DNA of 64,000 nucleotides from Corallium rubrum (Eukaryota > Cnidaria > Anthozoa > Scleralcyonacea > Coralliidae). Made by a program: the position numbers and the translations under genes. The DNA is taken from positions 11,293,199 to 11,357,198 of the forward strand of contig OZ036002.1 in the NCBI GenBank assembly GCA_964035015.1, given 5' to 3'. Under the pieces are notes generated by a model. That model made no database searches and was not told where the DNA came from. It saw only the letters and a list, made by a program, of their open reading frames with translations. Position 1 is the stretch's first letter. The number at the start of each line of letters is the position of its first letter. Of this stretch, positions 4,417 to 55,828 are shown in pieces.

Positions 4417-4548
4417 CATCATCATCATCATCATCATCATATAAATAAGAAACAGAGAAATATGATTTCTCGAATTCTTTAAATTCCTTCTCGAGTACTT
4501 CAAACTCCTTCAATAATACTTCAATCTTCGTCTCACGTTTTCCGCCTT
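4417..4548 (-). CDS. Type C exon of exon-repeat gene (U1)
   Basis: Internal exon read on the minus strand, 132 nt. The acceptor is 'TTTATATGTAG' and the donor G|GTAAGT. It carries 2 nt, 43 codons and 1 nt, so it is phase 1 at both ends. The peptide is strongly charged: GGKRETKIEVLLKEF, then a heptad-like E/K/F stretch consistent with a coiled coil, then seven Asp from a GAT run. Sister exons in U2, U3 and U4 are 120, 120 and 108 nt. All keep the same splice sites and frame, so the indels are multiples of three. I do not recognise the protein. Just left of the donor a 44-bp segment including a second GTAAGT is duplicated. The gene context (exons D, C, B alternating leftwards) supports one repeated gene; expression is unproven. 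Confidence 0.65.
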
Positions 4549-5008
4549 CTACATATAAACAAAATTATTATATATACCGTTGGGCACTGTTGTGATATTG
4601 ATGCATCTGAAAACTCTATAATGATGATGAAGTGTCAACAAATTTAGCTTTTAAAAAACTAATTGACAACGCTATTTATGTAAGAAAATTTTTATCTAAT
4701 AATATCCATAAAAATTTGAAATGTAACACAAAGAAAAGACTAAAATTATTATTTATAAATTGATAATACTACTATAAAAGGCGGGATATAAATAAATAAA
4801 AAAACCGTAAGAAAGAGACAGAAAAGAAGACCAATTTGCGAAGAAGAAGAAATAATTAAAAAGAAAATTAAGAATGGCCGAATGAGGACGCAAATTACTT
4901 TAAGCTGTGTACATATGTTCACCTTTCATATGTTCACAATATATGCAACTATTTACAAGACAATTAGGCAAAAGACCAAACAAGATAACATGATTAACAG
5001 TTGCAAGA

Positions 5009-5182
5009 TAACAGACGTTCGGTGGACGTTCGTCAAGCTCCATTACTCAGAAAATATTTCTGAGACCCCAGACAGCTGGGTTCGAACCTGCATTAGGAGG
5101 TTGCAGATTCGAACCCTGTCTGGGGTCTCAGAAATCTTTTCTGAGTAATTGAGCTTGACGAACGTCCACCGAACGTCTGTTA
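5009..5182. mobile_element. Foldback MITE, near-perfect palindrome (U1)
   Basis: About 174 bp that fold back on themselves. The outer 32 nt of each arm, starting TAACAGACGTTCGGTGG, are identical, and the inner arms match with few mismatches. GGTTCGAACC/GATTCGAACC near the centre resembles a pol III box B on either strand. Unit U4 has a full copy; U2 and U3 share a deletion of most of the left arm. Confidence 0.75.
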
Positions 5183-5603
5183 CATTACACCAAGCTCGCA
5201 AACGTACCACATGCATTACATATATACGTACAACTATCATGTCACATTTACAAGATACTGACGAATAGAATGGGAAATGCTTAGTGTGTACAAGATTGCG
5301 GTGCCCTGACGAGTAACCGTTGAGCGGCTGGCTCTTTAAGGTAGCTTTACATTCTGGGTGTTACTTTTTTTGTGGCAGACACAGAAACGTGGGCTCTGGG
5401 AACGAGAATACCAGCGATGTTTTTGACGACAAGGATTTTGGCGGCTTTTTGACGACACCATGTTTGTGAAGAAAAGCAATGAGCAATCCGCAGGCAGATA
5501 CAATTGTGTGTCCTGACGTGCTAGCGGCTAGCTTGTCAGCAAGCTTTATAATTTTTCTTGTACGTTTCTGCAGAATTGATAGACAGTCACATAAACGACA
5601 TAG

Positions 5604-6993
5604 GCTCTGGCGTTGTCGCATCATCATCATCACCATCATTTATTCGCCAAATAATAATAGGATAGTAGATAAAATTAAAGTGCTATAGAAGATAATTGGC
5701 AAGAGGACCTCATGAAACCATAAGGCTATTATAGAAGAGGTCCCCTCGTATAGATTTGATATTATTTAAATTTTATAATAACGAGTGGTGTATGCAAATA
5801 TAACGAATTCAGGTATTTTCGCCCATTAAGTAGTAAATGAAAAGTTTCTTATGGAAGGAGAATATAGAAGCTGAGTTGGTAACTGAAGATGGTAGAGAAT
5901 TCCAAATTTTTGGACCTAAGTGAAGAATTGTAAATTGTTTAATATTTGTTCGACATGTGTGGGACATGTAATCTGCTGCATATCTAGTATTATAATTATG
6001 TACTTGACTATTAGTTAAAAATAAATCAAGGAAAAACGACGGTAGCAAACGATGGTGATATAAAAACATAAATTTAGCAATATGGAATGAATTTACTTTA
6101 TAGATATCTAGAATTTTTAAGTGGATAAATAAGGGTGCTGAATGGGCTCGGAAATCTGAATTCGTTATGGCACGCACCGCTCGTTTCTGAAGAAGAAGAA
6201 TTCTATGTAAACTAGTGACGTATGTAGATGACCAAACTATGTTACAGTAATTAAGATAAGGATAAATCAGAGTGTAATATAGAGACAATTTTGTCTTAGT
6301 GGATAATTCGAAACGAGATCTATAAATTACTCCAATAGATCTTGATATTTTTTTACACACGTAATTAATATGAGATTTCCATGCAAGGTTCTCATCTATA
6401 TAAATACCCAGGAATTTCACTACTTGCTCTTGTTTAAGACATTGATTGTCATAAACAATAGGCAAATTGATATTGATTAACTTTTGTTTTGGTTTAAAAA
6501 TAATATAACTTGTTTTTTTTATATTAATAGAAAGCTTATTGGATTTCATCCATTTGTCAATATCAATTAATTCTGTGTTTAATACAGAAATTAGCTGTTT
6601 TGGATCTGAGTGAGAATAAAAAATGCTAGTGTCATCTGCAAAAAGCAAAGACTCCGCCATTCTCGTAGCATTAGGTAGATCATTAATATAAAGTAAAAAG
6701 AATAAAGGGCCTAACATAGAGCCCTGAGGTACACCGCAACTTATTATTTGCTTGGAGGAACTGGTCTCCTTAATTTGCACAAATTGTTTACGATTAGAAA
6801 AATAGCTCTTAATCCATTGCAGAGCTACACCACGGATACCATAATGTTCTAGTTTAGCAAACATAATTTCGTGGTTTAAGGTATCAAACGCTTTTGAAAG
6901 GTCCAGAAATACACCGACAGTGATTTCTTTTTGGTCTATGGCTTTTTTTTTTGGTCTATTTCTTTTTGGTCTTTGGGCTCTGGCATTGTCGCA
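5604..6993 (-). mobile_element. 5'-truncated CR1/L2-like LINE with target duplication
   Basis: The inserted DNA is about 5621-6976. It is flanked by 17-bp direct repeats, GCTCTGGCGTTGTCGCA (5604-5620) and GCTCTGGCATTGTCGCA (6977-6993). U2 and U3 carry the uninterrupted site. The 3' end on the minus strand ends in a GATGATGATG-type short repeat, as in CR1/L2-like elements that lack poly(A). The 5' end falls inside the reverse transcriptase domain and carries several copies of a 'GACCAAAAAGAAAT'-type filler. Confidence 0.85.
5809..6975 (-). pseudogene. LINE reverse transcriptase, C-terminal part
   Basis: Non-LTR reverse transcriptase that would copy element RNA into the genome by target-primed reverse transcription. 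The open frame begins inside the RT domain at motif A (VGVFLDLSKAFDTLNH). It then shows GVPQGSMLGPLFFLLYINDL (motif B region), the catalytic LLFADDTSIF (motif C, FADD), KFLGIYIDENLAWKSHI, and the C-terminal landmarks NYNTRYA and GPKIWNSLPSS, which are typical of CR1/L2/Jockey-group LINEs. The endonuclease domain and the N-terminal fingers are missing, so the copy cannot be autonomous. The frame is uninterrupted to the stop, so the insertion looks fairly young, younger than the split of U1 from U2/U3. Reading continues upstream of 6975 into target DNA and is not part of the protein. Confidence 0.85.
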
Positions 6994-7232
6994 TTGAGAA
7001 TGGAAGCGATGTTTTCGACGCAAGGGATCTTGGCGGCTTTTTTATACGATCTCCGTAAAGCGAAGCGTTCGGCAGGTAAAAACAACTGCGCAAAATTGCA
7101 GTGCCCTAACAAGTTAGAGACTAGATCGTAAGGCACCTTTATGCTACGGTGCCCTGACAAACCAGTCGCTGCTCTGACGACTTGTTAGATAGTTTCATAT
7201 TCAGGGTGTTGGACACAATCGTACGCTAGGCC

Positions 7233-7436
7233 GTGGCACCTGTAAGCCACGGACACAGAAGCGTGGGCTCTGGAAACGAGAATGCAAGTGACTTTTTTGA
7301 CGCCAAACAGGGCACCGCTCTTCAGGACTTTGTCCGCTTCAAAAATATTTTTGCCGTGTTGGTTAAAAACATAATTGCAGATGATAAAAAAACGTTTGCC
7401 AAACTCATCCAACTTGGCGCTAATGACATAAGGTAA
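7233..7436 (+). other. Conserved open segment, possible plus-strand exon
   Basis: A 67-codon open frame recurs at 21,851-22,054 and 34,423-34,632 with a few amino-acid changes. It includes ALQDFVRFKNIFAVL and KKTFAKLIQLGANDIR and ends at an AG|GTAAAC donor-like site. An ACACAG acceptor-like site lies near 7261. Related but decayed copies of its 'GGGCTCTGG...AACGAGAAT' start occur upstream at about 5389. The opposite strand is also open, and conservation could simply reflect recent duplication, so coding status is uncertain. Function unknown. Confidence 0.25.
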
Positions 7437-8447: not shown

Positions 8448-8504
8448 CCGAAAATCCACGTTTAAGATAATCCACCTTTTCCTCAAGGCTTTTTAAAGTA
8501 AGTC
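8448..8504 (-). CDS. Type D exon of exon-repeat gene (U1)
   Basis: Minus-strand internal exon, 57 nt. The acceptor is 'ATCCATTTTTAG' and the donor G|GTAAGG. It carries 2 nt, 18 codons and 1 nt, so it is phase 1 at both ends like types A, B and C. It encodes LTLKSLEEKVDYLKRGFS, an amphipathic charged segment. U2 and U3 carry the same exon with E-K-V-D changed to E-K-L-V. In U4 the block containing it has been inverted. Unknown protein. Confidence 0.55.
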
Positions 8505-9710: not shown

Positions 9711-9728
9711 GAGACGCAACGAAGTCCT

Positions 9729-12640: not shown

Positions 12641-12694
12641 TACGTTTCAGTTCTTCATAATCCCTCTTGAGACGTTTGTACCTCCAGCGTAAGT
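12641..12694 (-). CDS. Type B exon of exon-repeat gene (U2)
   Basis: Minus-strand internal exon, 54 nt. The acceptor is 'TTTCTTTAAAG' and the donor A|GTAAGTG. It carries 2 nt, 17 codons and 1 nt, phase 1 at both ends. It encodes LRWRYKRLKRDYEELKR, a short basic and acidic helix-like segment. Three other copies (two in U3, one in U4) have 54, 45 and 42 nt with diverged ends but the same LRWR start, frame and phase. Their donor sequences differ in place, yet each restores phase 1, which is hard to explain unless the exon is or was translated. Confidence 0.6.
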
Positions 12695-16114: not shown

Positions 16115-16715
16115 ATTATGATTAAATGTCCCGAAAGCCGGGGGGGGGGGGGGTGTGGACGTCACGAAGGCCGCAGGCCTGAAGGACTTTAACACAGCTT
16201 CACGAAACCCAAGGTTTTAGGGGAATTTAATCACTAATATCCCGACATGTTATAGTATCAGTTTCTAATACCATGATTGACGAGGTAATATCATTAATTA
16301 GCATTGTTTGGAATTCTTTTAGGAACTAGAACGTGTAATACAAATATAGCTGATAGATTTTGTGTGAACAAACTGAACATATTAACGTGACAAATTTACT
16401 CAAGCTTAATGTCCCATATGGGTAGTGAAATTCAATGGTCTTTTGATGTTCGCTCATGCATCTTAATGAGGGGAAAATTAGAAATTTTCTTCCAAACCAG
16501 GAAAACCCCGAAAATTAGTAAAAACAAAAGAAACCGAAATAATCATGGTATTAGTATGTATATACCCACTCCGTCTTAAATTTAGTTGGTTACTGTAAAA
16601 AATAAAACAAATTCCAAAGAATAAAATCGGAATTTGTTTTATTTTTGACTTTTTGAAATTGTCGGGTGGTAATGATAATTACTGTAACCACTTAACTTTC
16701 TAGATTAATCTTATT
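16115..16715. repeat. R module, upstream copy (U2)
   Basis: Follows the empty site of the recombinase element directly (GGGATAT then TATGATT). It carries a poly-G stretch near 16,140 where U1 has GAGGGAGGG. Confidence 0.7.
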
Positions 16716-17601
16716 AGAATTATAGAAGAATTGCTTCACCCTACTGATCATCATCTCTATACAACTGGATTGCTCATCCTTTATGGGATGTAATCAGCAG
16801 TAACCATTTTGAAGCCACTGGCGGCCATATTGGTACTCCAGGTCCAGTGTACACCGCAGGCCTGAAGGACTTTAACAAACACGACGTTTTAGGGGAATTT
16901 AATCACTAATATCCCGACATGTCATGATATTAGTTAGTAATACCATGATTGACGATGTAATATAATTAGCATTGTTTGGAAAATATAGCTGAAGAAATTT
17001 GTTTAAAACTATGTGCCTATGCAACGAAGTTTTCAAGTTGGGGAAAATAACATTAAAGTAAAGTTTGAGATGACTTCTTTCAATTGTGAAAGTTTCAGGG
17101 CGAAACATTGAAGGAAAGTATGTTGTATTAACGTTTGAAAAATAGGGTTTTGTCGCAGGATGCTGAGACATATTTTATTCCACAACTAATGACATCACCA
17201 GGGCCTACATGAATTCTTATTGTCATCAAACAAACTGTTCAAAACACCCTTTAGAAAATTAAATTCTCAGGGAAAAGTGTTCACAAAGATGTGTAAAATT
17301 TATTCATATCGAGTTATTCATTTTAAAATATACATAGCCGATGCCGTATCAAACTTGGTCATCTTAACAGTGATTAGGAATATACTGTCAATTTTTGACA
17401 ACTTATACATGTTCGTGAATAGTTCACTTATGAAACTTAAAATGTCTGACTACAAAATGACAAAATGACTGCATTTTTCTGTTTATGTACACGGCATTGT
17501 GCCACGAGCTTAGAATGCAAAAAAACTTGAGATCTGGGTCGAGTGACACCATTAGTTGTGCATGCAGCTATGCCAACTATTCTCACTGAATAATTAATTA
17601 G
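16716..17601. repeat. Q module of the unit (U2)
   Basis: About 0.9 kb shared with U3 (29,286-30,177) and U4 (42,350-43,260) but absent from U1. It begins with 'TTAGAATTATAGAAGAATTG', contains a partial R-like segment (16,852-16,985), and ends where the recombinase frame opens. Short open frames on both strands are shared by the copies but have no recognisable domain. Confidence 0.65.
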
Positions 17602-19236
17602 CTCAGAGCGGTAAAAATTAACTTTCCTGTTCCGGTGGATTTAGTTTCTTTATATCTTTTTGATAAAGTTTCTTCTAGTGCTTCAGCCTCGTCTCTTGCT
17701 TCTGCGGTCTATGGCATTCGATGGGCTCACCACATCGCCGGTCTGGAATCACCAACCGATCATTTGTTCGTCAAGCAAATTTTGGAGGCAGGCAAACGCT
17801 TGTATGGTAAACCACGCCAGCCTCGGAAACCGATTTCCTTGGATACTTTGCGGGAAATCGTTCTCAAGTTTGGCACTGTTCGGGCCTCTTTGTCCGACCT
17901 GCGTCTTTGCTTTATCTTTCTTGTAGGGTTTGCAGGGTTTTTGCGATGTGATGAGTTAATTCATATTCAACGTAAACACGTACATGTCCTCGAAGATCAC
18001 ATGGAAATTTTTATTCCTTCTCGGAAAAACGATAAGTATAATCCTGGGCACAGAGTGTTCATTGCCAAAACTTCCCATATTACATGTCCCGTTGACATTA
18101 CGCTTAGATATTTGCACTTGTTACCAAGTTGTTCTGATCAATTTTTGCTATGTCGTTTGACGTGTACCAGGAAAGGCTACGTAGCCCAAAAGCGGGCCAT
18201 TAGTTATTCTAGGGTTCGTGAAATAATGTTGCAGGCCCTCAAAAGTATTCTCCCTGATGTTTCCGGCTACGGTACCCATAGTCTCAAGAGAGGCGCAGCC
18301 TCAGCTGCTTGTAATTCCGGTTCTGTTACCGCAGAACAAATTGATCTGCATGCGGGGTGGAAGTCGACGCTTTCACAGCGTTTGTATGTTGAAAATAGTC
18401 TTGATAGTAAATTAGCTGTGTCTAAGTCTTTGAAGTTATAACTTTAATATATGTTTCACCTGCCTTGCTTTGTCTCGCCTCGTTTCCTTGTCTTTGTAGC
18501 TTTCGGGAGCTGTTTGTCTCCAACACTGGACCCTGCAGCAAGATTCTCCACACTCCCAGTTGTCGTGTGCGTTGTAGAGCAATGAATAAATACTTTCCTA
18601 CGGTACGTAGTGTAGTAGGAAAGTGTATTCATTATGGCACTCGCTGCATGTATTCCCAAGAGGATGCTGGGGCGGACCCCGTGGTCAGAAGAGCACTTAT
18701 ATAAAGAGCAGTACCACGTTGCAGAAGTCACTCGGTTAACAGTGTCGGTCGTCAAACTTGTATTTTAATTTGGTCTATTTCTGTACATAGTTTGTTTTTT
18801 ATATATTATTTCTTTGTATATTACTGCATGTTCGCTCTGTTCGGGGAGCAGCGCTGGTTATCTCGGTCCCGACCCAGATTTCCTGTCAAGTTTTTCCCAG
18901 ATGTGGGTTTTTTATCAGACAGGTTTTTTCTGGCCTTCCTGATGCCAGCCAATTGTGTAATAGTGCATAGCTAACTTCCTCACCTATCTTGCAGTATACT
19001 TGTATATTTTGTCATTGGTTGTTTCTGCATGTATATCGCACTTGTTTGTTTCTTTTTATTCTTTGTATATAGTTTTCTTGCATGCCACCATTCATGTAAT
19101 CTATCACACATATTTCGTAGAATGTCTACGTGTAGTCTAGCAATGTTTTATTAAAGAGCTGTTTGTCTCCAACACTGGACCCTGCAGCAAGATTCTCCAC
19201 ACTCCCAGTTGTCGTGTGCGTTGTAGAGTAATGAAT
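17602..19236 (+). mobile_element. Tyrosine-recombinase element with split direct repeats (U2)
   Basis: The recombinase gene is followed by an 80-bp repeat B1 (18,508-18,587), a unique block A2 (18,588-19,156) and a second 80-bp repeat B2 (19,157-19,236). B1 and B2 both start AGCTGTTTGTCTCCAACACT and end AATGAAT. A2 holds a TATA-like ACTTATATAAAGAG near 18,698 and a late TTTATTAAAG signal. YR-B1-A2-B2 is the right-hand architecture of Ngaro-type (DIRS order) retrotransposons. The expected left part (A1, gag, RT, RNase H) is missing, so this copy is 5'-truncated. Confidence 0.6.
17635..18441 (+). CDS. Tyrosine recombinase, 5'-incomplete (U2)
   Basis: Site-specific recombinase that would join circular element DNA to the chromosome through a covalent 3'-phosphotyrosine. 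The frame is open from 17,602, after a TAG, and has no ATG. The N-terminal SAM-like region is seen from VDLVSLYLF to HHIAGLESP. The catalytic domain follows: FLRCDEL (Arg I), a KNDKYNPGH beta-hairpin region, THSLKRGAAS (HxxR box), LHAGWKS (His/Trp box) and the nucleophile in RLYVENSLDSK. At the fourth position of the HxxR box there is Lys, followed by Arg. It resembles recombinase-like proteins that are numerous in corals. B1-A2-B2 follow directly. The frame is intact apart from its start, which may lie in an upstream exon or have been lost. Confidence 0.8.
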   Translation: MDLVSLYLFDKVSSSASASSLASAVYGIRWAHHIAGLESPTDHLFVKQILEAGKRLYGKPRQPRKPISLDTLREIVLKFGTVRASLSDLRLCFIFLVGFAGFLRCDELIHIQRKHVHVLEDHMEIFIPSRKNDKYNPGHRVFIAKTSHITCPVDITLRYLHLLPSCSDQFLLCRLTCTRKGYVAQKRAISYSRVREIMLQALKSILPDVSGYGTHSLKRGAASAACNSGSVTAEQIDLHAGWKSTLSQRLYVENSLDSKLAVSKSLKL

Positions 19237-19840
19237 TATGATTAAATGTCCCGAAAGCCGAGGGAGGGTGTGTGGACGTCACGAAGGCCGCAGGCCTGAA
19301 GGACTTTAACATAGCTTCACGAAACCCAAGGTTTTAGGGGAATTTAATCACTAATATCCCGACATGTCATGGTATTAGTTTGTAATACCATGATTGACGA
19401 GGTAATATAATTAGCATTGTTTGGACTTCTTTTAGGAACTAGAACGTGTAACACAAATATAGCTGATAGATTTTGTGTGAACAAACTGAACATATTAACG
19501 CGACAAATTTACTCAAGCTTAATGTCCCATATGGGTAGTGAAATTCAATGGTCTTTTGATGTTCGCTCATGCATCTTAATGAGGGAAAAATTAGAAATTT
19601 TCTTCCAAACCAGGAAAACCCCGAAAATTACAGATTAAATCTCTCTGTAAAAACAAAAGAAACGGAAATAATCACGGTGTATTAGTATCTATAAACTCCC
19701 TCCATTTTAAATTTAGTTGGTTACTGTAAAAAATAAAACAAATTCCAAAGAATCAAACATCGGAATTTGTTTTACTTTTTGAAATTATCGGGTGGTAATG
19801 ATAATTACTGTAACCACTTAACTTTCTAGATTAATCTTAT
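19237..19840. repeat. R module, downstream copy (U2)
   Basis: Second R copy in U2, starting exactly at the end of B2. The flanking duplication around the recombinase element points to unequal crossing-over between filled and empty units. Confidence 0.7.
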
Positions 19841-20187
19841 AGTTATTACAGATAGCTTTCTGCGTCAATAACATGGGTTTAATTTCTACACTGTATTAAA
19901 TATAGGTGCTAAGTAAAATACACTGAATTAAATCGAATTGAGTGAAACGAAATAGCTGATAAAGCCCCATAATAACAGATGCAGATGCAAAGGAATGCAG
20001 ATGAAGGATAAAACGTGGATGAAAAATGTAGATTAGAGAATAAAATGTAGATGAATTAAAAAATACGAATGTAGATAAATGCGGATAAAAAATCAACCCA
20101 AAATAAACATCGTAAACTATCACACTTTTCGGTTGACTTCGTCAGTGGATATACAAAATCATGAAATGTTCCCTTATTGGTACTTAC

Positions 20188-20307
20188 CATCACGATCATA
20201 TGAATAAGAACCAGAGAAATATGATTTCTCGAATTCTTTAAATTCCTTCTCGAGTACTTCAAACTCCTTCAATAATACTTCAATCTTCGTCTCACGTTTT
20301 CCGCCTT
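20188..20307 (-). CDS. Type C exon of exon-repeat gene (U2)
   Basis: 120 nt, minus strand, 2 nt plus 39 codons plus 1 nt. Acceptor 'ATATGTAG', donor G|GTAAGT. It encodes GGKRETKIEVLLKEF, the E/K/F heptad region, and a tail SYSYDRD in place of the poly-Asp of U1. Four codons shorter than the U1 exon, with the frame kept. Confidence 0.65.
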
Positions 20308-20769
20308 CTACATATAAACAAAATTATTATATATACCGTTGGGCAATGTTGTGATATTGATGCATCTGAAAACTCTATAATGATGATGAAGTGTCAACAA
20401 ATTTAGCTTTTAAAAAACTAATTGACAACGCTATTTATGTAAGAAAATTTTTATCTAATAATACCCATAAAAATTTGAAATGTAACACAAAGAAAAGACT
20501 AAAATTATTATTTATAAATTGATAATACTACTATAAAAGGCGGGATATAAATAAATAAAAAAAACGTAAGAAAGAGACAGAAAAGAAGACCAATTTGCGA
20601 AGAAGAAGAAATAATTAAAAAGAAAATTAAGAATGGCCGAATGAGGACGCAAATCAATTTAAGCTGTGTACATATGTTCGAACCTTTCATATGTTCACAA
20701 TGTATGCAACTATTTGCAAGACAATTAGGCAAAAGACCAAACAAGATAACATGATTAACAGTTACAAGA

Positions 20770-20868
20770 TAACAGACGTTAGAAGGTTGCAGATTCGAAC
20801 CCTGTCTGGGGTCTCAGAAATCTTTTATGAGTAATTGAGCTTGACGAACGTCCACCGAACGTCTGTTA
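20770..20868. mobile_element. Foldback MITE, left arm deleted (U2)
   Basis: Same element as at 5009-5182, but the left arm is cut from after ACAGACGTT to AGAAGGTTGC. The right arm and its terminal GTCTGTTA are intact. Confidence 0.75.
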
Positions 20869-20943
20869 CATTACACCAAGCTCGCAAACGTACCACATGC
20901 ATTACATATATACGTACAACTATCATGTCACATTTACAAGATA

Positions 20944-21258
20944 GTGGCACGGGTGGCGTGTGCTGTTAGAGCGCTGCCTCTCACCGCTTTAGTTAAGCCC
21001 TGTTGGACGGGGTTAGTATTTGGATGGGTGACCATCTGGGAATAACCCCGTTCTCGGACTTAAATTTCATGTGAGTAGAGTTTAGTTGGTCTCTCCTGTG
21101 CTTCGAGGGTTTTTCGCAGGGTTCTGCGGTTTTCCTCCCTCCGTAAAATCAACACTTAGGTCTTAGTTTATGTCGTGCACTTTTAACGTGAGCCTCTGGC
21201 TCGGATGATTGGGCGACCACATCCTGTGCTTACGACGTTAAATAAATCATTACTCATT
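20944..21258 (+). mobile_element. tRNA/5S-rRNA chimeric SINE (U2)
   Basis: About 315 bp inserted where U1 (5254) and U4 (45,214) have none. The head, GGTGGCGTGTGCTGTTAGAG..., resembles a tRNA with box A. Positions 20,991-21,055 match the 3' half of 5S rRNA, including GTTAGTATTTGGATGGGTGA and CCATCTGGGAATA. An unrelated body follows, and the tail AAATAAATCATTACTCATTA is AT-rich. Chimeric tRNA/5S heads are known from the DeuSINE group. Transcription by RNA polymerase III is expected from family knowledge. Confidence 0.75.
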
Positions 21259-23027
21259 ACCAATAGAATGGGAAATGCTTAGTGTGTACAAGATTGCGGT
21301 GCCCTGACGAGTAACCGTTGAGCGGCTGGCTCTTTAGGTAGCTTTACATTCTGGGTGTCACTTTTTTGTGGCAAACACAGAAACGTGGGCTCTGGGAACG
21401 ACAATACCAGCGATGTTTTTGACGACAAGGATTTTGGCGGCTTTTTGACGACACCATGTTTGTGAAGAAAAGCAATGAGCAATCCGCAGGCAGATACAAT
21501 TGTGTGTCCTGACGTGCTAGCGGCTAGCTTGTCAGCAAGCTTTATAATTTTTCTTGTACGTTTGTGCAGAATTGATAGACAGCCACATAAACGACATAGG
21601 CTATGGCATTGTCGCATTGAGAATGGAAGCGATGTTTTTCACGCAAGGGATCTTGGCGGCTTTTTTATACGAAGCGAAGCGTTCGGCAGGTAAAAACAAC
21701 TGCGCAAAATTGCAGTGCCCTAACAAGTTAGAGACTAGATCGTAAGACACCTTTATGCTACGGTGCCCTGACAAACCAGTCGCTGCTCTGACGACTTGTT
21801 AGGTAGTTTCATATTCAGGGTCTTTAATTGCCACAATCGTACGCTAGGCCGTGGCACCCGTAAGCCACGGACACAGAAGCGTGGGCTCTGGACACGAGAA
21901 TGCAAGTGACTTTTCTGACGCCAAACAGGGCACCGCTCTTCAGGACTTTGTCCGCTTCAAAAATATTTTTGCCGTGTTGGATAAAAAGATAATTGCAGAT
22001 GATAAAAAAACGTTTGCCAAACTCATAAAACTTGGCGCTAATGACATAAGGTAAACACCAACAAAATTAAAATCGTCAAGAGAGAGATGTTATTTATGTT
22101 TAGTTTGACAACAATGAGCAAAATTTGGGAGTCAATGAGCGGTGCATTTCTTTCTCATCAAAGGCTATATATACCCATATATTTTCAGGTTTGCATATAA
22201 AAATGTCGACATTTTGGAAGGAAATGCAATATGCTTCACAACACTTAACGCGTCATATGTTAACAACAAGCGATCTCAACATATGAATTCAGTTTTTTAC
22301 GTGAAAAAAGCTACGCAAACGTCCTCCTAAGCTGCGAATGCAGCCGCATACTGTGGCTAGGTCCTCCCAAAGAGCAACGTCCGCGACCCAGTGAAAAAAT
22401 TCCATACTGATAACGTCATATGTCAGAATACATGCATCGTGTCTGATTGGATATCCTGTTAATAATCGAGAGAAATTTAAAACACACATTGACGTCACGC
22501 TCGATGCCTAGAAAAATGTTCCATTTCAATGGGAATCTAACAATTTATCGCAAATGGAAAGAATAACTATTTGTTTTCTTTAATGACAAAAACTAGGCAT
22601 TTGCCTTGAAATTTAACACAGAAACGGCGTTGGCGTTAATTTTGGTCTGGTCCATTAAGCCATGCACCAGTGATTTTATTTATTCGCGTATATATGATCA
22701 CAGAATAATGAACCAATCAGAAGCGATGCTTGCATTCTGGGAAAATTAACGTCATCAAGTATTGATTTTTTACAATTAAGAGACAGACGTTATTTCGGAG
22801 AAAGAACGAGCACACAGTACGGGGCTGCTGCCACAGGCTAACGACATCTAGGTTGAAAACAAAATCCGAAAAGGCAGAGTATAATTTCATTATTTGTGTT
22901 CGGCGTAAATAACGAATAACATTATTTAATATCTATTAAAATATTCTAATTTGCTTCTTGTCGTTATGGTTCTTCACTTTTAAGCAAGACTCATATTTAT
23001 CATGTTAACAATTTCAAAATGCCTTAC

Positions 23028-23084
23028 CCGAAAATCCACGTTTAAGATAGACCAACTTTTCCTCAAGGCTTTTTAAAGTAAGTT
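23028..23084 (-). CDS. Type D exon of exon-repeat gene (U2)
   Basis: 57 nt, phase 1 at both ends, donor G|GTAAGG, acceptor 'CATTTTTAG'. It encodes LTLKSLEEKLVYLKRGFS. Same frame and length as U1. Confidence 0.55.
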
Positions 23085-23369
23085 CTAAAAATGGATTGAT
23101 ATTACAAGTGTTAATTGTATGACTGAATCTAACACTAACATGCATGCTTGGTTTAAAAAGCATATGCATGATATAAACTCACACAAAAACAAGTTTATAT
23201 AAGAACATTAAACCTGTGGTTTCGCTACCCAAGTTCAGTACCAGTACAACAATATGCCAGTTAAAAAACGACTCATTTATACCGAAATGAAAAGTATAAC
23301 GTAAAGAACCCTTAAGCAGATTGCAATAAAGACTGCAACCGCAAGGAGATTTTTATGGTTTTCAACAAT

Positions 23370-24326: not shown

Positions 24327-24380
24327 TAGGTTTATCTTCTTCATAATTCCTCTTGAGATGTTCGTACCTCCAGCGTAAGT
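24327..24380 (-). CDS. Type B exon of exon-repeat gene (U3, copy a)
   Basis: 54 nt, 2 nt plus 17 codons plus 1 nt, acceptor 'TTTAAAG', donor A|GTGAGTG. It encodes LRWRYEHLKRNYEEDKP. It lies about 600 bp downstream (minus-strand sense) of a second type B exon, made by a local tandem duplication. Confidence 0.6.
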
Positions 24381-24936: not shown

Positions 24937-24981
24937 CTTCTTCATAATCCATCTTGAGATGTTCGTATCTCCAGCGTAAGT
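24937..24981 (-). CDS. Type B exon of exon-repeat gene (U3, copy b)
   Basis: 45 nt, 2 nt plus 14 codons plus 1 nt, donor G|GTAAAC. It encodes LRWRYEHLKMDYEE. Three codons shorter than copy a, but phase 1 is kept at both ends. Confidence 0.55.
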
Positions 24982-27467: not shown

Positions 27468-28784
27468 AAATGTAAAGATCAATTTATTCACAATAAAAAC
27501 CATGTTTATAAAAACTACATGAAGTATAAGTACAAAATAACATTATAATAAAAACTATATTTACATTAAATTTCAGAATGTCTGTTCGAGTGTTTTCAAT
27601 TTGGCCTCTTCAAGAAGATGTTCTTTCACCACTAACCATGATTTGTCAGGTCGTGGATTATAACCAAATAGGGGACCGTATTCAACGATGTTGTTCCACC
27701 ACGTTGGCAGCTGCTGTAATTTACCTGCACCAGCAAGATCATCAGCAAAGGCTGCCTGCGTCACCTTAGAATCTGGTTCCTTGATTTCACGAAGTAATGG
27801 TGTGATACCGATCGCATATATTGGCATAGCAATAGGATCACCCTGAGTAGTACCCTCAGCAGACGAAATTTCCTTCCCTCCTTGGACAAATAAACGAGAT
27901 GGACTCTGGTAGCAGTTGATGGTATAAATTGCCAGAACTGGACATAGATATTGAATATTATGCAACAATACCTTTCTATTAATCGAGTTAAATGCATTTG
28001 CTGCATCAACAAGGAGAATGGCATCAGACTCATCTTGGTCGAACGCTTGCGTCATGGCATGGACTGCGGCTTCACACCCAGATCGTTGTCCAGCACAGAG
28101 TTGCTGTGGACCTGCGCATTGAACAATCTGTGACTTAACTGTGGCAGTGACAGTTTTTCCAATTATTCTACGAATAATTTCTCCGATTCCTATTGGACGC
28201 ACACCTGGTAGCTTATCCAAAGGAATTAATCTGCATGACAGATATGCTTCAATACTAGTTGACCCATCCTCCTGAATCTCAAGTGTACGTGTTGCCAGAT
28301 TTCGTGCCATGGATGCAATTGTTTCTCGTAATTCTTTCCCTGTATAGTCATAGTTTTTCGAAACAAGAATATGTCTCCATCCAAGAGCATCTAACCCGGA
28401 GGGCCCAGCAGCACCTTTAGTATACATAGCTGCTCTTGCTACAGATGCTTCATCTATATTCGCAAAAACTGCTGGATCAACAAAAGGAACTTCGCCTCTC
28501 ATTAAAGTTGACTCATCAGCAGGTTGAGATGCAGGATGTTTCTTCAACAACTCTTCAAGGACTTCGTTGGAAAGGGAGAGCACACCTCCTGAATTGGTCT
28601 CATCGAGTAGTCGCATTGCAGCATTCACTTTCCCCTCCAACATCAACTTGGAGAAAATCTTGGAAACTTGCTCTGGAGTACGAGACCGTCTCGTCGAACA
28701 ACAACTTTCTTGAATATATCTAGCTTCTCTGACCAACTTATCAAAATCACCTGCCTGCCACAGAATCATACGTCTAGAAAACTC
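27468..28784 (-). mobile_element. Reverse-transcriptase segment replacing about 1 kb of U3
   Basis: Compared with U2, bases corresponding to about 15,228-16,200 (hAT right end, MITE, start of R) are missing, and this 1,317-bp block lies in their place. On the minus strand it starts inside a protein and ends about 15 nt after an AATAAA (27,488-27,483) without poly(A). No target duplication is visible. This looks like insertion of reverse-transcribed sequence at a deletion or break. Confidence 0.65.
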
Positions 28785-28787
28785 CAC
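27573..28787 (-). CDS. Non-LTR-like reverse transcriptase, incomplete
   Basis: RNA-dependent DNA polymerase domain in one uninterrupted frame, stop at 27,573. Motifs in order: GAAGPSGLDALGWR; CRLIPLDKLPGVRPIGIGE (finger region); AILLVDAANAFNSINR (motif A, catalytic Asp); EGTTQGDPIAMPIYAIG (motif B); AAFADDLAGAG (motif C, catalytic Asp pair); and WWNNIVEYGPLFGYNP with a DKSWLVVK block (thumb side). No endonuclease, integrase or RNase H is seen. The first codons at the right end (28,787-28,785) lie in flanking DNA, and the first Met is at about 28,769. From family memory similar proteins are common in corals and sponges and are longer at both ends, so I judge this copy truncated. The clade is not assigned. 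Confidence 0.75.
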   Translation of the reverse strand: MEFSRRMILWQAGDFDKLVREARYIQESCCSTRRSRTPEQVSKIFSKLMLEGKVNAAMRLLDETNSGGVLSLSNEVLEELLKKHPASQPADESTLMRGEVPFVDPAVFANIDEASVARAAMYTKGAAGPSGLDALGWRHILVSKNYDYTGKELRETIASMARNLATRTLEIQEDGSTSIEAYLSCRLIPLDKLPGVRPIGIGEIIRRIIGKTVTATVKSQIVQCAGPQQLCAGQRSGCEAAVHAMTQAFDQDESDAILLVDAANAFNSINRKVLLHNIQYLCPVLAIYTINCYQSPSRLFVQGGKEISSAEGTTQGDPIAMPIYAIGITPLLREIKEPDSKVTQAAFADDLAGAGKLQQLPTWWNNIVEYGPLFGYNPRPDKSWLVVKEHLLEEAKLKTLEQTF

Positions 28788-29285
28788 GAAACTCGAGGTT
28801 TTAGGGGAATTTAATCACTAATATCCCGACATGTTATAGTATTAGTTTGTAATACCATGATTGACGAGGTAATATAATTAGCATTGTTTGGAATCCTTTT
28901 AGGAACTAGAACGTGTAATACAAATATAGCTGATAGATTTTAATTTTAAATTTACTCAAGCTTAATGTCCCATATGGGTAGTGAAATTCAATGGTCTTTT
29001 GATGATCGCTCATGCATCTCAATGAGGGAAAAATTAGAAATTTTCTTCTAAACTAGGGAAGCCCCGAGAATTAGAGATCAAATCTCTCTGTAAAAACAAA
29101 AGAAACCGAAATAATCATGGTATTAGTATGTATATACCCCCTCCGTTTTAAATTTAGTTGGTTACTGTAAAAAATAAAACAAATACCAAAGAATAACATC
29201 GGAATTTGTTTTATCTTTTACTTTCTGAAATTGTCGGGTGGTAATGATAATTACTGTAACCACTTAACTTTCTAGATTAATCTTA
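28785..29285. repeat. R module, partial upstream copy (U3)
   Basis: Starts at CACGAAAC because the first part was lost with the reverse transcriptase insertion. Confidence 0.7.
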
Positions 29286-31812: not shown

Positions 31813-32410
31813 TATGATTAAATGTCCCGAAAGCCGAGGGAGGGTGTGTGGACGTCACGAAGGCCGCAGGCCTGAAGGACTTTAACACAGCTTCACGAAA
31901 CCCAAGGTTTTAGGGGAATTTAATCACTAATATCCCGACATGTCATGGCATTAGTTTGTAATACCATGATTGACGAGGTAATATAATTAGCATTGTTTGG
32001 ACTTCTTTTAGGAACTAGAACGTGTAACACAAATATAGCTGATAGATTTTGTGTGAACAAACTGAACATATTAACGCGACAAATTTACTCAAGCTTAATG
32101 TCCCATATGGGTAGTGAAATTCAATGGTCTTTTGATGTTCGCTCATGCATCTTAATGAGGGAAAAATTAGAAATTTTCTTCCAAACCAGGAAAACCCCGA
32201 AAATTACAGATTAAATCTCTCTGTAAAAACAAAAGAAACGGAAATAATCACGGTGTATTAGTATCTATAAACTCCCTCCATTTTAAATTTAGTTGGTTAC
32301 TGTAAAAAATAAAACAAATTCCAAAGAATCAAACATCGGAATTTGTTTTACTTTTTGAAATTATCGGGTGGTAATGATAATTACTGTAACCACTTAACTT
32401 TCTAGATTAA
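31813..32410. repeat. R module, downstream copy (U3)
   Basis: Near-identical to 19,237-19,840. Confidence 0.7.
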
Positions 32411-32763
32411 TCTTATAGTTATTACAGATAGCTTTCTGCGTCAATAACATGGGTTTAATTTCTACACTGTATTAAATATAGGTGCTAAGTAAAATACACT
32501 GAATTAAATCGAATTGAGTGAAACGAAATAGCTGATAAAGCCCCATAATAACAGATGCAGATGCAAAGGAATGCAGATGAAGGATAAAACGTGGATGAAA
32601 AATGTAGATTAGAGAATAAAATGTAGATGAATTAAAAAATACGAATGTAGATAAATGCGGATAAAAAATCAACCCAAAATAAACATCGTAAACTATCACA
32701 CTTTTCGGTTGACTTCGTCAGTGGATATACAAAATCATGAAATGTTCCCTTATTGGTACTTAC

Positions 32764-32883
32764 CATCACGATCATATGAATAAGAACCAGAGAAATATGA
32801 TTTCTCGAATTCTTTAAATTCCTTCTCGAGTACTTCAAACTCCTTCAATAATACTTCAATCTTCGTCTCACGTTTTCCGCCTT
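32764..32883 (-). CDS. Type C exon of exon-repeat gene (U3)
   Basis: 120 nt, identical in layout to the U2 exon at 20,188-20,307 (offset 12,576), with phase 1 splice sites at both ends. Confidence 0.65.
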
Positions 32884-33345
32884 CTACATATAAACAAAAT
32901 TATTATATATACCGTTGGGCAATGTTGTGATATTGATGCATCTGAAAACTCTATAATGATGATGAAGTGTCAACAAATTTAGCTTTTAAAAAACTAATTG
33001 ACAACGCTATTTATGTAAGAAAATTTTTATCTAATAATACCCATAAAAATTTGAAATGTAACACAAAGAAAAGACTAAAATTATTATTTATAAATTGATA
33101 ATACTACTATAAAAGGCGGGATATAAATAAATAAAAAAAACGTAAGAAAGAGACAGAAAAGAAGACCAATTTGCGAAGAAGAAGAAATAATTAAAAAGAA
33201 AATTAAGAATGGCCGAATGAGGACGCAAATCAATTTAAGCTGTGTACATATGTTCGAACCTTTCATATGTTCACAATGTATGCAACTATTTGCAAGACAA
33301 TTAGGCAAAAGACCAAACAAGATAACATGATTAACAGTTACAAGA

Positions 33346-33444
33346 TAACAGACGTTAGAAGGTTGCAGATTCGAACCCTGTCTGGGGTCTCAGAAATCTT
33401 TTATGAGTAATTGAGCTTGACGAACGTCCACCGAACGTCTGTTA
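33346..33444. mobile_element. Foldback MITE, left arm deleted (U3)
   Basis: Identical deletion derivative to the U2 copy at 20,770-20,868, which shows that U2 and U3 share a recent common ancestor. Confidence 0.75.
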
Positions 33445-33519
33445 CATTACACCAAGCTCGCAAACGTACCACATGCATTACATATATACGTACAACTATC
33501 ATGTCACATTTACAAGATA

Positions 33520-33834
33520 GTGGCACGGGTGGCGTGTGCTGTTAGAGCGCTGCCTCTCACCGCTTTAGTTAAGCCCTGTTGGACGGGGTTAGTATTTGGA
33601 TGGGTGACCATCTGGGAATAACCCCGTTCTCGGACTTAAATTTCATGTGAGTAGAGTTTAGTTGGTCTCTCCTGTGCTTCGAGGGTTTTTCGCAGGGTTC
33701 TGCGGTTTTCCTCCCTCCGTAAAATCAACACTTAGGTCTTAGTTTATGTCGTGCACTTTTAACGTGAGCCTCTGGCTCGGATGATTGGGCGACCACATCC
33801 TGTGCTTACGACGTTAAATAAATCATTACTCATT
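33520..33834 (+). mobile_element. tRNA/5S-rRNA chimeric SINE (U3)
   Basis: Copy of the U2 SINE at the same site, present through the segmental duplication and not a separate insertion. Confidence 0.75.
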
Positions 33835-35605
33835 ACCAATAGAATGGGAAATGCTTAGTGTGTACAAGATTGCGGTGCCCTGACGAGTAACCGTTGAGCG
33901 GCTGGCTCTTTAGGTAGCTTTACATTCTGGGTGTCACTTTTTTGTGGCAAACACAGAAACGTGGGCTCTGGGAACGACAATACCAGCGATGTTTTTGACG
34001 ACAAGGATTTTGGCGGCTTTTTGACGACACCATGTTTGTGAAGAAAAGCAATGAGCAATCCGCAGGCAGATACAATTGTGTGTCCTGACGTGCTAGCGGC
34101 TAGCTTGTCAGCAAGCTTTATAATTTTTCTTGTACGTTTGTGCAGAATTGATAGACAGCCACATAAACGACATAGGCTATGGCATTGTCGCATTGAGAAT
34201 GGAAGCGATGTTTTTCACGCAAGGGATCTTGGCGGCTTTTTTATACGAAGCGAAGCGTTCGGCAGGTAAAAACAACTGCGCAAAATTGCAGTGCCCTAAC
34301 AAGTTAGAGACTAGATCGTAAGACACCTTTATGCTACGGTGCCCTGACAAACCAGTCGCTGCTCTGACGACTTGTTAGGTAGTTTCATATTCAGGGTCTT
34401 TGCCACAATCGTACGCTAGGCCGTGGCACCCGTAAGCCACGGACACAGAAGCGTGGGCTCTGGACACGAGAATGCAAGTGACTTTTCTGACGCCAAACAG
34501 GGCACCGCTCTTCAGGACTTTGTCCGCTTCAAAAATATTTTTGCCGTGTTGGATAAAAAGATACATGTAATTGCAGATGATAAAAAAACGTTTGCCAAAC
34601 TCATAAAACTTGGCGCTAATGACATAAGGTAAACACCAACAAAATTAAAATCGTCAAGAGAGAGATGTTATTTATGTTTAGTTTGACAACAATGAGCAAA
34701 ATTTGGGAGTCAATGAGCGGTGCATTTCTTTCTCATCAAAGGCTATATATACCCATATATTTTCAGGTTTGCATATAAAAATGTCGACATTTTGGAAGGA
34801 AATGCAATATGCTTCACAACACTTAACGCGTCATATGTTAACAACAAGCGATCTCAACATATGAATTCAGTTTTTTACGTGAAAAAAGCTACGCAAACGT
34901 CCTCCTAAGCTGCGAATGCAGCCGCATACTGTGGCTAGGTCCTCCCAAAGAGCAACGTCCGCGACCCAGTGAAAAAATTCCATACTGATAACGTCATATG
35001 TCAGAATACATGCATCGTGTCTGATTGGATATCCTGTTAATAATCGAGAGAAATTTAAAACACACATTGACGTCACGCTCGATGCCTAGAAAAATGTTCC
35101 ATTTCAATGGGAATCTAACAATTTATCGCAAATGGAAAGAATAACGATTTGTTTTCTTTAATGACAAAAACTAGGCATTTGCCTTGAAATTTAACACAGA
35201 AACGGCGTTGGCGTTAATTTTGGTCTGGTCCATTAAGCCATGCACCAGTGATTTTATTTATTCGCGTATATATGATCACAGAATAATCAACCAATCAGAA
35301 CCGATGCTTGCATTCTGGGAAAATTAACGTCATCAAGTATTGATTTTTTACAGTTAAGAGACAGACGTTATTTCGGAGAAAGAACGAGCACACAGTACGG
35401 GGCTGCTGCCACAGGCTAACGACATCTAGGTTGAAAACAAAATCCGAAAAGGCAGAGTATAATTTCATTATTTGTGTTCGGCGTAAATAACGTATAACAT
35501 TATTTAATATCTATTAAAATATTCTAATTTGCTTCTTGTCGTTATGGTTCTTCACTTTTAAGCAAGACTCATATTTATCATGTTAACAATTTCAAAATGC
35601 CTTAC

Positions 35606-35662
35606 CCGAAAATCCACGTTTAAGATAGACCAACTTTTCCTCAAGGCTTTTTAAAGTAAGTT
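35606..35662 (-). CDS. Type D exon of exon-repeat gene (U3)
   Basis: 57 nt, identical peptide to U2 (LTLKSLEEKLVYLKRGFS), donor G|GTAAGG. Confidence 0.55.
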
Positions 35663-36159
35663 CTAAAAATGGATTGATATTACAAGTGTTAATTGTATGA
35701 CTGAATCTAACACTAACATGCATGCTTGGTTTAACAAAAGGTCCGCTATGCGTACATGTATCTGCGCCATATACCCACCACTGTGAGAATCACTTGTCAA
35801 GATCTTGTAAGATCTTGTGCGATCTTGGAAAATCTTGTAAGATCTTAAGAAAAACCTTATAAGATTTTTACACGTAGATCTTATAAGATTTTATCGAGAT
35901 CTTATAAGATAATTAAACATCAGAGAAAGTACACGTTCAATTCTCTGACCAAAATAATTTATCATGACTCACAAAAAACTGTGGTAGATCGCAGTCAAAA
36001 GTTTACTATAAGTCACGTTAAAAATACTTACCAGTTTTATCAGCAATATCCCCTATGTGCGAAATGTTTTAGTGCAAAGCTTTGTCGTAAATATAGAATT
36101 TAATGGCTAACTGAAGATATATCCCAATACAGCTGTTGAGCCGGACACCGCGGGTCTAA

Positions 36160-38261: not shown

Positions 38262-38303
38262 CATCATAATACTTCTTGAGACGTTGGCACCTCCAGCGTA
38301 AGA
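38262..38303 (-). CDS. Type B exon of exon-repeat gene (U4)
   Basis: 42 nt, 2 nt plus 13 codons plus 1 nt, acceptor 'TTATTTAAAG', donor G|GTAAGTG. It encodes LRWRCQRLKKYYD. The most diverged B exon, but the LRWR core and phase are kept. Confidence 0.55.
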
Positions 38304-44391: not shown

Positions 44392-44499
44392 CATCATCAT
44401 CAATCGAGAATTCCTTCATGTCGAATTCTTTAAACTCCTTCTCGAATACTTCAAACTCTTTCAAGAATTCTTCAATCTTCGTCTCACGTCTTCCGCCTT
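44392..44499 (-). CDS. Type C exon of exon-repeat gene (U4)
   Basis: 108 nt, 2 nt plus 35 codons plus 1 nt, acceptor 'ATATGTAG', donor G|GTAAGT. It encodes GGRRETKIEEFLKEFEVFEK, then a charged stretch and a DDDD tail. Eight codons shorter than U1 and diverged at many bases, yet splice sites, frame and charge pattern are kept. This is the best evidence that the exon has been under selection. Confidence 0.65.
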
Positions 44500-49123: not shown

Positions 49124-50832
49124 CCAGTTCACATGGTGAACGTTTGCTGTGCTCCTGGTTGTACTAATAAAAGTACCCGTGATAAAAATGTTTCTTATCA
49201 TCGCGGTTTCCCGCAAATAAACAACTACAAAGGAAATGGCTTCGATCTATTAGGCGCGAAACTTTGCAAGTTAATCAGAGCACAAGGGTTTGCATCGCTC
49301 ACTTCAGGAATAGCGAAAAGTCGTCCAAGACTGATGTGCCATATGTTAGAAGTCCATCACTCGTGCCAAAACCAAAGCAGCCTCGTAAACTAGTAACTAA
49401 GATTTCCAGTGATAATGGTATAAATGTAAATGATATTGATAGCCTTGAGGTCATTGGGGATGAAAGTACATCTAGTATGAATCAAGATGATGACCCTGAA
49501 GAACAAATGGACGGCGATTATGAAACATTAGGTGATAAAGTAACCAACTTGGATGAAAATATGCACGCTGAGAGTGATGATGATGATGATGAATACTTGC
49601 CTACTCAAATACAACCGATGAGGTTAGAACACATCTATGGAAATGACAAACTTATCCGCCTCTATACTGGACTACCGAATACTACGACGTTTCATATTTT
49701 ATGCGATAACTTAGGTGTGCCAATCAATAATTTACAGTACTGGGGAAGACCTACGACATTTCCAGACGGGAACAAAAGAGGTCCTCCACGAAAGCTTTGC
49801 CCACATGATGAGCTACTGCTTACCCTTATGAGGCTGCGTTTGGCCTTGCTAGAGGAAGATTTAGCTTTTCGATTTGGAATCTGCCAGTCATTAGTTTCAC
49901 AGCTTATCAACACAAGGACTGCTGTGTTGTACAATCGCCTTGCTGTAAACACAAACTGGTGGATTTCCCGAGAAGCTAACAAACAGCTCATGCCTACAGC
50001 TTTTCAAGAGAAGTACCCCTACACACGAGCAATATTTGATGCCACAGAAATTTTTATTCAGAAGCCATCTGACCTTGGTTGCCAAAGCACAACATGGTCC
50101 AGCTACAAACGCCATTCTACAGCCAAAGGTCTGATTGTAGTGGCTCCACTTGGTGGTGTCATGTTTGCTTCAGAACTGTACACTGGCTCCATATCAGATA
50201 AGGAACTTGTTGTCCAGTCTGGGGTGTTCAATTATATCGAGGAAGGGGATGATATAATGGCTGATCGACGCTTCACTATTGAAGATTTGTTAGATGAAAA
50301 AAAGGCCACCCTTAACATGCCACCATTCCATTCAAAAATGGCAAAGTACAGCTGTCAAAACAAGAGATTATATCAAGCAGGCAGATTGCTGCAAATGTTG
50401 CGAGTTCATGTTGAACGTGCTATTGGTAGAATGAAACATTACAGGATCCTTAACTCAGTTTTCCCCCTCAAATGCAGCAGATCACTAAGCATGATTTTTC
50501 AGATATGTGCTTACCTTTCAAATTTCAATGGCCCATTAGTTGAGCTTCCACCATCTGTCATTGCAGAGTACAAGGTTATTCCTGCTAATATAGTTCTAAA
50601 CAAGCCTTCTGCTTCTGCAAGAAACCCTTCTGTTTCAACCAAGCCTTCTGTTTCAACCGAGCCTAATTCTGTTTCAACCAAGTCTTCTGTTTCAAACAAA
50701 TCTTGTTCAAATGGTTCCACACCACTAACACCTCGAAAACCTTTAATGGTGTCTACACCTGCAGTTTCTAATATAAAGCATTCCGATGGTGTTGGTGAGA
50801 ATTTGGAACCCCTGCTAGAACAGTTATTTTAA
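49124..50832 (+). CDS. THAP-DDE transposase of ISL2EU, one frameshift
   Basis: DNA-cutting enzyme that would excise and insert the element. The N-terminal THAP zinc finger (C2CH) starts MVNVCCAPGCTNKS and continues NVSYHR. A 2-nt excess (GG at 49,205-49,206) breaks the frame at the usual HRFP motif. The next frame reads FPANKQLQRKWLRSIRRE and STRVCIAHF, supplying the last Cys and His. It stays open to the stop. An acidic linker (poly-Asp near 49,580) follows, then a helix-turn-helix-like region, then the DDE_4 catalytic core: IFDATEIF (Asp at 50,038), DDIMADRRF (Asp at 50,263) and RVHVERAIGRMK (Glu at 50,413). The tail is rich in SVSTK repeats. If the GG is real the copy is inactive; a small intron or a sequencing error are alternatives. 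Confidence 0.8.
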
Positions 50833-55195: not shown

Positions 55196-55213
55196 ATTTC
55201 GAAATGCCTTACC

Positions 55214-55299
55214 AAGATAGATTCAGTCATACAATTAATACTCGTAATATCAATCCATTTTTAGGACTTACTTTAGAAATGCTTCAGGGAAAGATGAAG
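55214..55299. other. Inverted block containing type D exon (U4)
   Basis: About 86 bp are flipped relative to U1-U3. On the plus strand 'CCATTTTTAG|GACTTACTTT' now reads LTLEMLQGKMK, while the donor CTTACC remains in the original orientation at 55,209. Exon D is therefore lost from the minus-strand gene in U4. Confidence 0.7.
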
Positions 55300-55539
55300 T
55301 AACACTAACATGCATGCTTGGTTTAAAAAGCATATACATAATATAAACTCACACAAAAACAAGTTTATATAAGAACCTTAAACCTGTGGTTTCGCTACCC
55401 AATTTCAGTACAAGGACAACAATATGCCGGTTAAAAAACGACTCATTTATACCGAAATGAAAAGTATAACGTAAAGAACCCTTACGCAGACTGCAATAAA
55501 GACTGCAACCACAAAACGATTTTTATGGTTTTTCAACAA

Positions 55540-55710
55540 TTCCAACAGACAACGGAAAAAACACCACAGCCAGTAGACAGCGAAGCAGAAAATTTTATAA
55601 CTTTTATAAATCGCCAATTGTACGTATTTCCATTACCAAAGCTGGAACTAATCAGCTTTGTAAAGGGATGAGACTGGACAATTTGAGACATCGCGGGTAG
55701 AGGCCACTGC
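55540..55710. repeat. Single copy of the 235-bp segment (U4)
   Basis: Matches the first copy of the duplicated segment at 9310-9710. The undoubled state is probably ancestral. Confidence 0.6.
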
Positions 55711-55777
55711 ATCAATTTCAAATTCTTCATCTTAGAACAGCATTAAGTAATAAAAACTACCTTGCTACAGTACTTAC

Positions 55778-55828
55778 CTAAAATTTGGAGCCATTTCAAG
55801 AATACCCATCTTTCTTCTTCCGTCAAAA
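55778..55828 (-). CDS. Type A exon of exon-repeat gene
   Basis: 51 nt on the minus strand, 2 nt plus 16 codons plus 1 nt, phase 1 at both ends. Acceptor 'TTTCTTTTTTTAAG', donor G|GTAAGT. It encodes LTEEERWVFLKWLQIL. It is the right-most exon of the series. The corresponding place in U1 and U2 was altered by the two-copy duplication, and the exon is gone there. Upstream exons to the right were not found. Confidence 0.6.

Follow-up and report, generated by a model that had tools for sequence, protein, structure and literature searches.

Repeated series of phase-1 exon-like segments in Corallium rubrum with an excess of protein-changing differences in one short exon type

Twelve exon-like segments in a repeated order

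We analysed a 64,000-nucleotide stretch of the Corallium rubrum genome (contig OZ036002.1, here C18, positions 11293199-11357198; the window is this whole stretch), whose minus strand carries twelve short exon-like segments of four types, one A, four B, four C and three D, repeated along the DNA. Exon coordinates are in window numbering and megabase values are C18 positions. Each segment was found to be flanked by AG and GT, open in a phase-1 frame and in phase 1 at both ends, confirming for all twelve what an earlier note, made from the letters of this DNA, had said of their strand, types, lengths and phase. In transcript order the segments run A-C-B-D-C-partial B-B-D-C-B-D-C (Table 1). An additional, partially duplicated B of 45 nt lies about 600 nt away from a full B. 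Successive C segments lie 15,759, 12,576 and 11,616 nt apart, so that the repetition described in the earlier note stood but its unit length of 12-13 kb did not always apply, the C spacing ranging over 11.6-15.8 kb.

Splice sites were scored with weight matrices entered by hand, on which all acceptor and donor bit scores given here depend. The donors were GTAAGTAC in C and A, GTAAGGCA in D and GTRAGTGA in B, with the 45-nt B as the exception. The acceptors were only moderate, at 4.3-6.3 bits among those scored. The same scan produced 214 open AG..GT candidates on the minus strand (90 of them listed), among which the segments are not special by score; it is their behaviour across copies, rather than the splice score, that sets them above chance. 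At the C exon of unit 4, the duplicated donor region yields a second GTAAGTACC after the first, with a donor at 4378.

Table 1. Features of the window, with the exon-like segments in transcript order followed by other elements
Feature	Position	Strand	Remarks
Exon A	55778..55828	-	51 nt, phase 1-1, LTEEERWVFLKWLQIL
Exon C, unit 1	44392..44499	-	108 nt
Exon B, unit 1/2	38262..38303	-	42 nt, LRWRCQRLKKYYD; divergence-scan peak 11/43, p=9e-16
Exon D, unit 2	35606..35662	-	57 nt, LTLKSLEEKLVYLKRGFS
Exon C, unit 2	32764..32883	-	120 nt
Second B exon, partial	24937..24981	-	45 nt, donor GTAAAC
Exon B, unit 3	24327..24380	-	54 nt, LRWRYEHLKRNYEEDKP
Exon D, unit 3	23028..23084	-	57 nt
Exon C, unit 3	20188..20307	-	120 nt
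Exon B, unit 4	12641..12694	-	54 nt, LRWRYKRLKRDYEELKR
Exon D, unit 4	8448..8504	-	57 nt, LTLKSLEEKVDYLKRGFS
Exon C, unit 4	4417..4548	-	132 nt; 38-nt duplication of donor region just downstream
Inverted D-exon fragment	55247..55296 (about)	+	piece of a broken D, 5'-most unit
Tandem segmental duplicates, longest pair	16198..23159 and 28782..35737		98.5% identical to each other
Reverse transcriptase frames	5809..7041 and 27573..28814		between exons
THAP/DDE transposase	49186..50832		between exons
Integrase-like frames	17602..18441 and 30178..31017		first without Pfam family; relatives of second named integrase by a source

Copies in the genome and divergence of exon B

The genome (474 Mb in 312 contigs) was searched for extra copies, with match counts that are lower bounds. 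C was found at no fewer than 10 places, B at at least 16 (one a 41-nt fragment) and D at at least 15 (nine full-length matches and six fragment rows), and the stretches fetched around the matches added one C and two divergent B. Including the window's own, 37 copies were read: 11 C (four in the window; L012, L013, L014, L016, L019, L020 and L038), nine full-length D (three in the window; L012, L013, L018, L019, L044 and L045) and 17 B (13 full and four partial). The C18 copies form arrays at 11.28-11.36, 11.63-11.67, 11.91-11.93 and 14.79-14.91 Mb, each in a single orientation and with exons ordered as a repeated D-C-B would allow; the array at 14.79-14.91 Mb, covered outside 14.825-14.872 Mb, lies on the opposite strand, and in the array at 11.91-11.93 Mb A, C and B alone are intact. 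Outside C18 the sole match, within these lower-bound counts, was a 345-bp B stretch on contig C39, and the C, B and D matches do not have the genome-wide dispersal of a transposable element.

All 37 copies were open in the phase-1 frame (11/11 C, 9/9 full-length D and 17/17 B), and stops in additional copies, which the earlier note had named beforehand as a sign against its reading, were found in none of them. Lengths ranged over 108-132 nt in C (one copy, L038, being 120 nt with a shifted AG) and 42-54 nt in B, and were 57, 60 or 72 nt in D, the 72-nt D carrying an in-frame 15-nt tandem duplication. In the alignments of B, C and D, 7/7 exon gaps were multiples of three, compared with 7/34 in the flanks; the gap between C exons of 132 and 120 nt is counted here as 12 exonic nt, since we divided the aligner's 50-nt gap and assigned 38 nt to the intron. 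The two other copies of exon A, at 11.668 and 11.930 Mb, share one sequence, which over 151 nt departs from the window A at the last exon base alone.

Two outlying copies were also observed. A D exon within a stretch of 73% similarity (L045, C18:14794450-14794760) is 60 nt long, open and in phase 1-1, with a peptide that is almost wholly different. The stray C39 stretch (L036:9421-9765) holds an open B exon with a good donor, and no other part of an array was found in the 20 kb around it. When this B was compared with the copy at 12.7 kb, 10/54 exon positions differed and 2/186 flank positions did; the exon is nearest to the 24.4-kb copy (6/54).

In exon B, codon positions 1 and 2 vary far more than the intron beside them. 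Pooled over 11 of the 13 full copies, a set without the divergent pair and the four partial copies, the nonsynonymous rate (dN) was 0.237 and the synonymous rate (dS) 0.060, with 0.069 in the flanking intron. The minimum numbers of changes at codon positions 1, 2 and 3 were 16, 18 and 4, and the variable columns 11, 10 and 3 of 17 each, compared with 55/189 in the intron (positions 1+2 versus intron, p=3.2e-4). We also examined seven copies with near-identical introns (about 2%), a set picked after the intron divergences had been seen, which omits the 24.4-kb copy, L018 and L019 with their more diverged introns, and L013a as a near-duplicate of L013b. Here the variable columns numbered 17/34 for positions 1+2, 1/17 for position 3 and 12/189 for the intron. 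Positions 1+2 exceeded both the intron (p=3.6e-9) and the third positions (p=0.0015), and no difference separated position 3 from the intron (p=1). Pooled over pairs, nonsynonymous divergence (N) was 0.181, synonymous divergence (S) 0.047 and intron divergence 0.020.

Individual pairs revealed the same excess. Between the B exons at 12.7 kb and 11.912 Mb, 7/54 exon positions differed compared with 38/1585 in the flanks (800 nt on each side; p=4.9e-4). The divergent pair, at 11.291 and 14.904 Mb, differed at 8/51 exon positions, compared with 0/204 in the identical stretches to either side (p=1.6e-6); all 6/6 changed codons were nonsynonymous. Across the 3-kb block shared by this pair, with a mean divergence of 3.4%, the exon alone reaches at least 7 differences per 50, about p=4e-4 against the block mean with the block count rounded. 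Among the four partial copies, all differing codons were nonsynonymous in 6/6 pairs. Diversifying selection on translated B exons, rather than decay of dead repeats, would fit this pattern. Many copies of one short exon within near-identical introns provide a built-in neutral control for reading selection.

An alternative reading, in which B starts from a stronger upstream acceptor at 38365 and becomes longer with a different frame, was considered and dropped: in that frame, copies with GAACTGAAA close to their 3' end meet a TGA (judged by eye), and the third-position pattern matches the phase-1 frame. In most copies about 60 nt of intron in front of B (38304-38370 in the window, and its equivalents before other B exons) are nearly invariant and contain a stronger CCCAG acceptor; this stretch may be a splicing signal or a decoy.

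Predicted product and gene boundaries

The C peptide in most copies reads GG(K/R)RETKIE..LKEFE..EKEFKEF, followed by a tail rich in D, S and Y. Hydrophobic periodicity at 105 degrees was found in 5/6 variants, and a single-sequence model of the 43-residue C peptide of unit 4 gave one helix over residues 7-32 (mean pLDDT 79.8). The B peptide is charged, with about 17 residues and an R-Y..L-K..Y-E pattern that is largely conserved. Across the seven C copies compared in this way, the first 25 codons changed little (N 0.055, S 0.074), unlike the fast tail (N 0.319, S 0.373); we do not claim selection on this hypervariable tail, N and S both being high.

We found no family or relative for these peptides, consistent with the earlier note, which had recognised no known protein. 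Joined exons of 283 amino acids gave no hit at E<=1 among 7994 scored candidates of a protein collection, and a joined sequence of 110 amino acids gave none at E<=10 among 3311. As a control, one of the integrase-like frames of the window was searched and matched 26 proteins, one of them 99% identical, and the collection thus seems to hold this or a close species. It was probably built mainly from unspliced frames, and the negative search is therefore weak and says little about transcripts. Thirteen Pfam families came up at E<=10 with none above its own cut-off, and three weak matches from a PDB sequence search (best E 0.0035, a ribosome assembly factor) were taken as chance matches of charged helices.

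First exons were sought as phase-1 ATG exons containing a hydrophobic stretch, a scan that other kinds of first exon would escape; in the stretches covered it yielded five rows, none inside the units of the window. One is situated about 24 kb ahead of exon A, on the far side of a leucine-rich repeat (LRR) gene; three are nested at 11.287 Mb, downstream of the last B-type exon; and one is within the 14.9 Mb array. None was adopted as the first exon, and the row about 24 kb before exon A remains a candidate. In the 3' block common to two arrays, no convincing terminal exon was found. The LRR gene, immediately upstream of the exons and likewise on the minus strand (L009:403-2770, at 64.4-66.8 kb or so in window numbering), has about eight copies of a 141-nt repeat. 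Its frame is interrupted here and open for at least 635 residues in the duplicate at 11.68 Mb.

Interpretation, alternatives and related systems

We propose as the best explanation, with a probability of about 0.7, that these are translated exons from a gene family that has no known relatives, which would be expanding by tandem and segmental duplication while B is under strong diversifying selection. Under this proposal a unit with the exon order D-C-B, with A in front, would have been duplicated tandemly and segmentally. Because every exon is in phase 1-1, any number of them could be joined without loss of frame, and duplicating or losing a unit would make the protein longer or shorter by one repeat. 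A highly charged protein of helical repeats would result, possibly a helical bundle, with C as an acidic helix plus a D/S/Y-rich tail and D and B as short charged segments, and selection would then rewrite the B helix. Such selection on B would suit a surface exposed to a changing partner, which might be a parasite, prey, symbiont or mate, as in an arms race. The earlier note had described one gene growing by tandem exon duplication; tandem coding exons, their regular order and the 1-1 phase held up, so that this reading is partly supported, and the exons may or may not belong to one gene.

Several observations weigh against the translated-exon proposal. In C (8 distinct of 11 copies, three having been dropped as repeats of other rows) dN was 0.146, dS 0.146 and intron divergence 0.118, and in D (6 of 9, with one duplicate dropped and L044 and L045 outside the set) the values were 0.110, 0.068 and 0.145; the share of variable columns did not differ from the flank (C p=0.46, D p=0.26). 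C and D are not distinguishable from neutral. The earlier note had asked for dN/dS on the C exons and named a value near 1, together with in-frame stops, as telling against it; the ratio is about 1 (0.146/0.146), which is half of that combination, and the selection signal lies instead in B, a type to which the earlier note had given no special place. Within B alone the N:S counts fall below significance (22:2, p=0.12; 34:3, p=0.05) because there are few synonymous sites, and the B copies are related, so that the p values describe columns rather than independent events. The variable sites of B tend to one helix face at p=0.093, a tendency not used as support. An unbiased divergence scan gave 145 raw peaks, with listed clusters that take in the B exons and three C exons; it also peaks at many other places, gap-rich or repeat stretches among them, and simple-repeat and other non-exonic places score as strongly as the B exon at 38262, and by itself it does not single out exons. 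The AG is shifted onward by 3 nt in six of the 17 B copies (the divergent pair, L013a, L013b, L018 and L019), giving 51 nt with phase kept (by eye). The C at 14.879 Mb has lost its TAG and has an AG 3 nt downstream; the D at 14.823 Mb retains its frame but neither of its splice sites; and the D of the 5'-most unit is in pieces, one of them inverted. Finally, neither a transcript nor a convincing first or terminal exon was found in the protein searches and exon scans.

How the exons are grouped into genes admits more than one answer. The arrays may consist of separate small genes, each unit of 12-16 kb having its own promoter and ends, and we regard this as a serious contender that falls short of even odds. 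The units are large and contain transposon genes, arrays occur at four places, and segmental duplication spreads the family; on the other side, the order A-C-B-D-C-B-D-C runs across unit borders in one orientation, and the first-exon scan described above placed none of its five rows inside a window unit. More tentatively, each array could be a single self-extending locus yielding one transcript, in which phase-1 exons are spliced together, duplication lengthens and re-mixes a recognition protein, and selection rewrites a helix of about 17 residues per repeat. If this were true, an individual could hold many different B helices through copy number and possibly through alternative splicing. The exons would improbably be the 3' part of the LRR gene: its frame ends near a phase-1 GTAAAA donor at about 64425, and the gene was co-duplicated with the exon A region at 11.67-11.68 Mb, but that donor is weak (6.4 bits), the frame's own stop follows about two dozen nt beyond, and the frame is interrupted in the window copy though open at 11.68 Mb.

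Two further explanations do without selection on a working protein, and we consider both unlikely. The segments might be dead repeats, out of use and left over from a single exon set that segmental duplication has carried with it, as the near-neutral C and D, the broken D copies and the lack of a relative in the protein collection would suggest. Positions 1+2 of B, however, greatly exceed the intron rate and position 3 stays at it, the exon gaps preserve frame and none of the 37 copies read is closed; for B this explanation is disfavoured. A mutational mechanism aimed at the B exon, such as hypermutation or patchwork gene conversion, would account for an excess restricted to the exon inside otherwise near-identical introns, for the C39 copy, whose exon and flank (2/186) are nearest to different window copies, and for an N:S below significance. 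Such a mechanism is opposed by third positions that are not raised above the intron (1/17 versus 12/189) and by a pooled S far below N.

Three known systems come closest to the translated-exon proposal. Micro-exon genes (MEGs) of Schistosoma mansoni are split by long introns into numerous very short exons whose lengths are mostly multiples of three, grow by duplication and yield diversified products (PMC10526429). Short exons in multiples of three (42-132 nt) with long introns between them are likewise found here. MEG exons measure 3-81 bp and their proteins have a signal peptide (PMC10526429), whereas the C exons here, at 108-132 nt, exceed that limit, the exon order repeats as D-C-B and none of the exons could be assigned as encoding a signal peptide; the likeness is descriptive. 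Bicycle genes of the aphid Hormaphis cornu have many small internal exons nearly all of one phase, phase 2, with about 17 exons per gene, and are under very strong positive selection (PMC9168663). Strong positive selection would be shared by exon B only, not by C or D; unlike bicycle exons, all 12 segments here are in phase 1, and they multiply as a repeated unit over 12-16 kb; this likeness too is descriptive. In snake venom toxin genes, coding parts evolve faster than their own introns and untranslated regions (PMC2711939). Those belong to known families, whereas the effect here concerns one 54-nt exon type of a protein without detected relatives, and no toxin role is implied.

The array would appear to work like MEGs, bicycle genes and venom genes. 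We do not claim membership: the phase is not that of bicycle genes, and for MEGs no signal peptide and no relation in sequence were established. A literature search for a cnidarian or exon-duplication precedent, covering titles and abstract openings, yielded no description of such a system. Flukes and aphids are known to have hypervariable micro-exon genes, and the repetition of a three-exon unit may have produced such genes anew in another lineage; genes with tiny exons, long transposon-bearing introns and no homologues are easily overlooked.

Around the exons, tandem segmental duplicates make up much of the window. Transposon genes lie between the exons (Table 1), in agreement with the earlier description of introns filled by transposons. 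No Rfam family at gathering score and no tRNA was found within the window. Two near-pure simple repeats, (ACAAAC)n with about 68 copies at 59882-60291 and (ACAT)n with about 56 copies at 37244-37466, form long open frames by themselves. Elsewhere in the genome, actin looks animal-like and no match to the large subunit of RuBisCO was found. On another contig, C129, we observed a mitochondrial COX1 (L040, C129:59766-61106) with 15 TGG codons, 0 TGA codons and a TGA stop, together with several rearranged COX1 fragments; a fragment with the same peptide is also present in the 53-Mb contig C8. A TGA stop in a COX1 without TGA codons is unusual for an animal mitochondrion.

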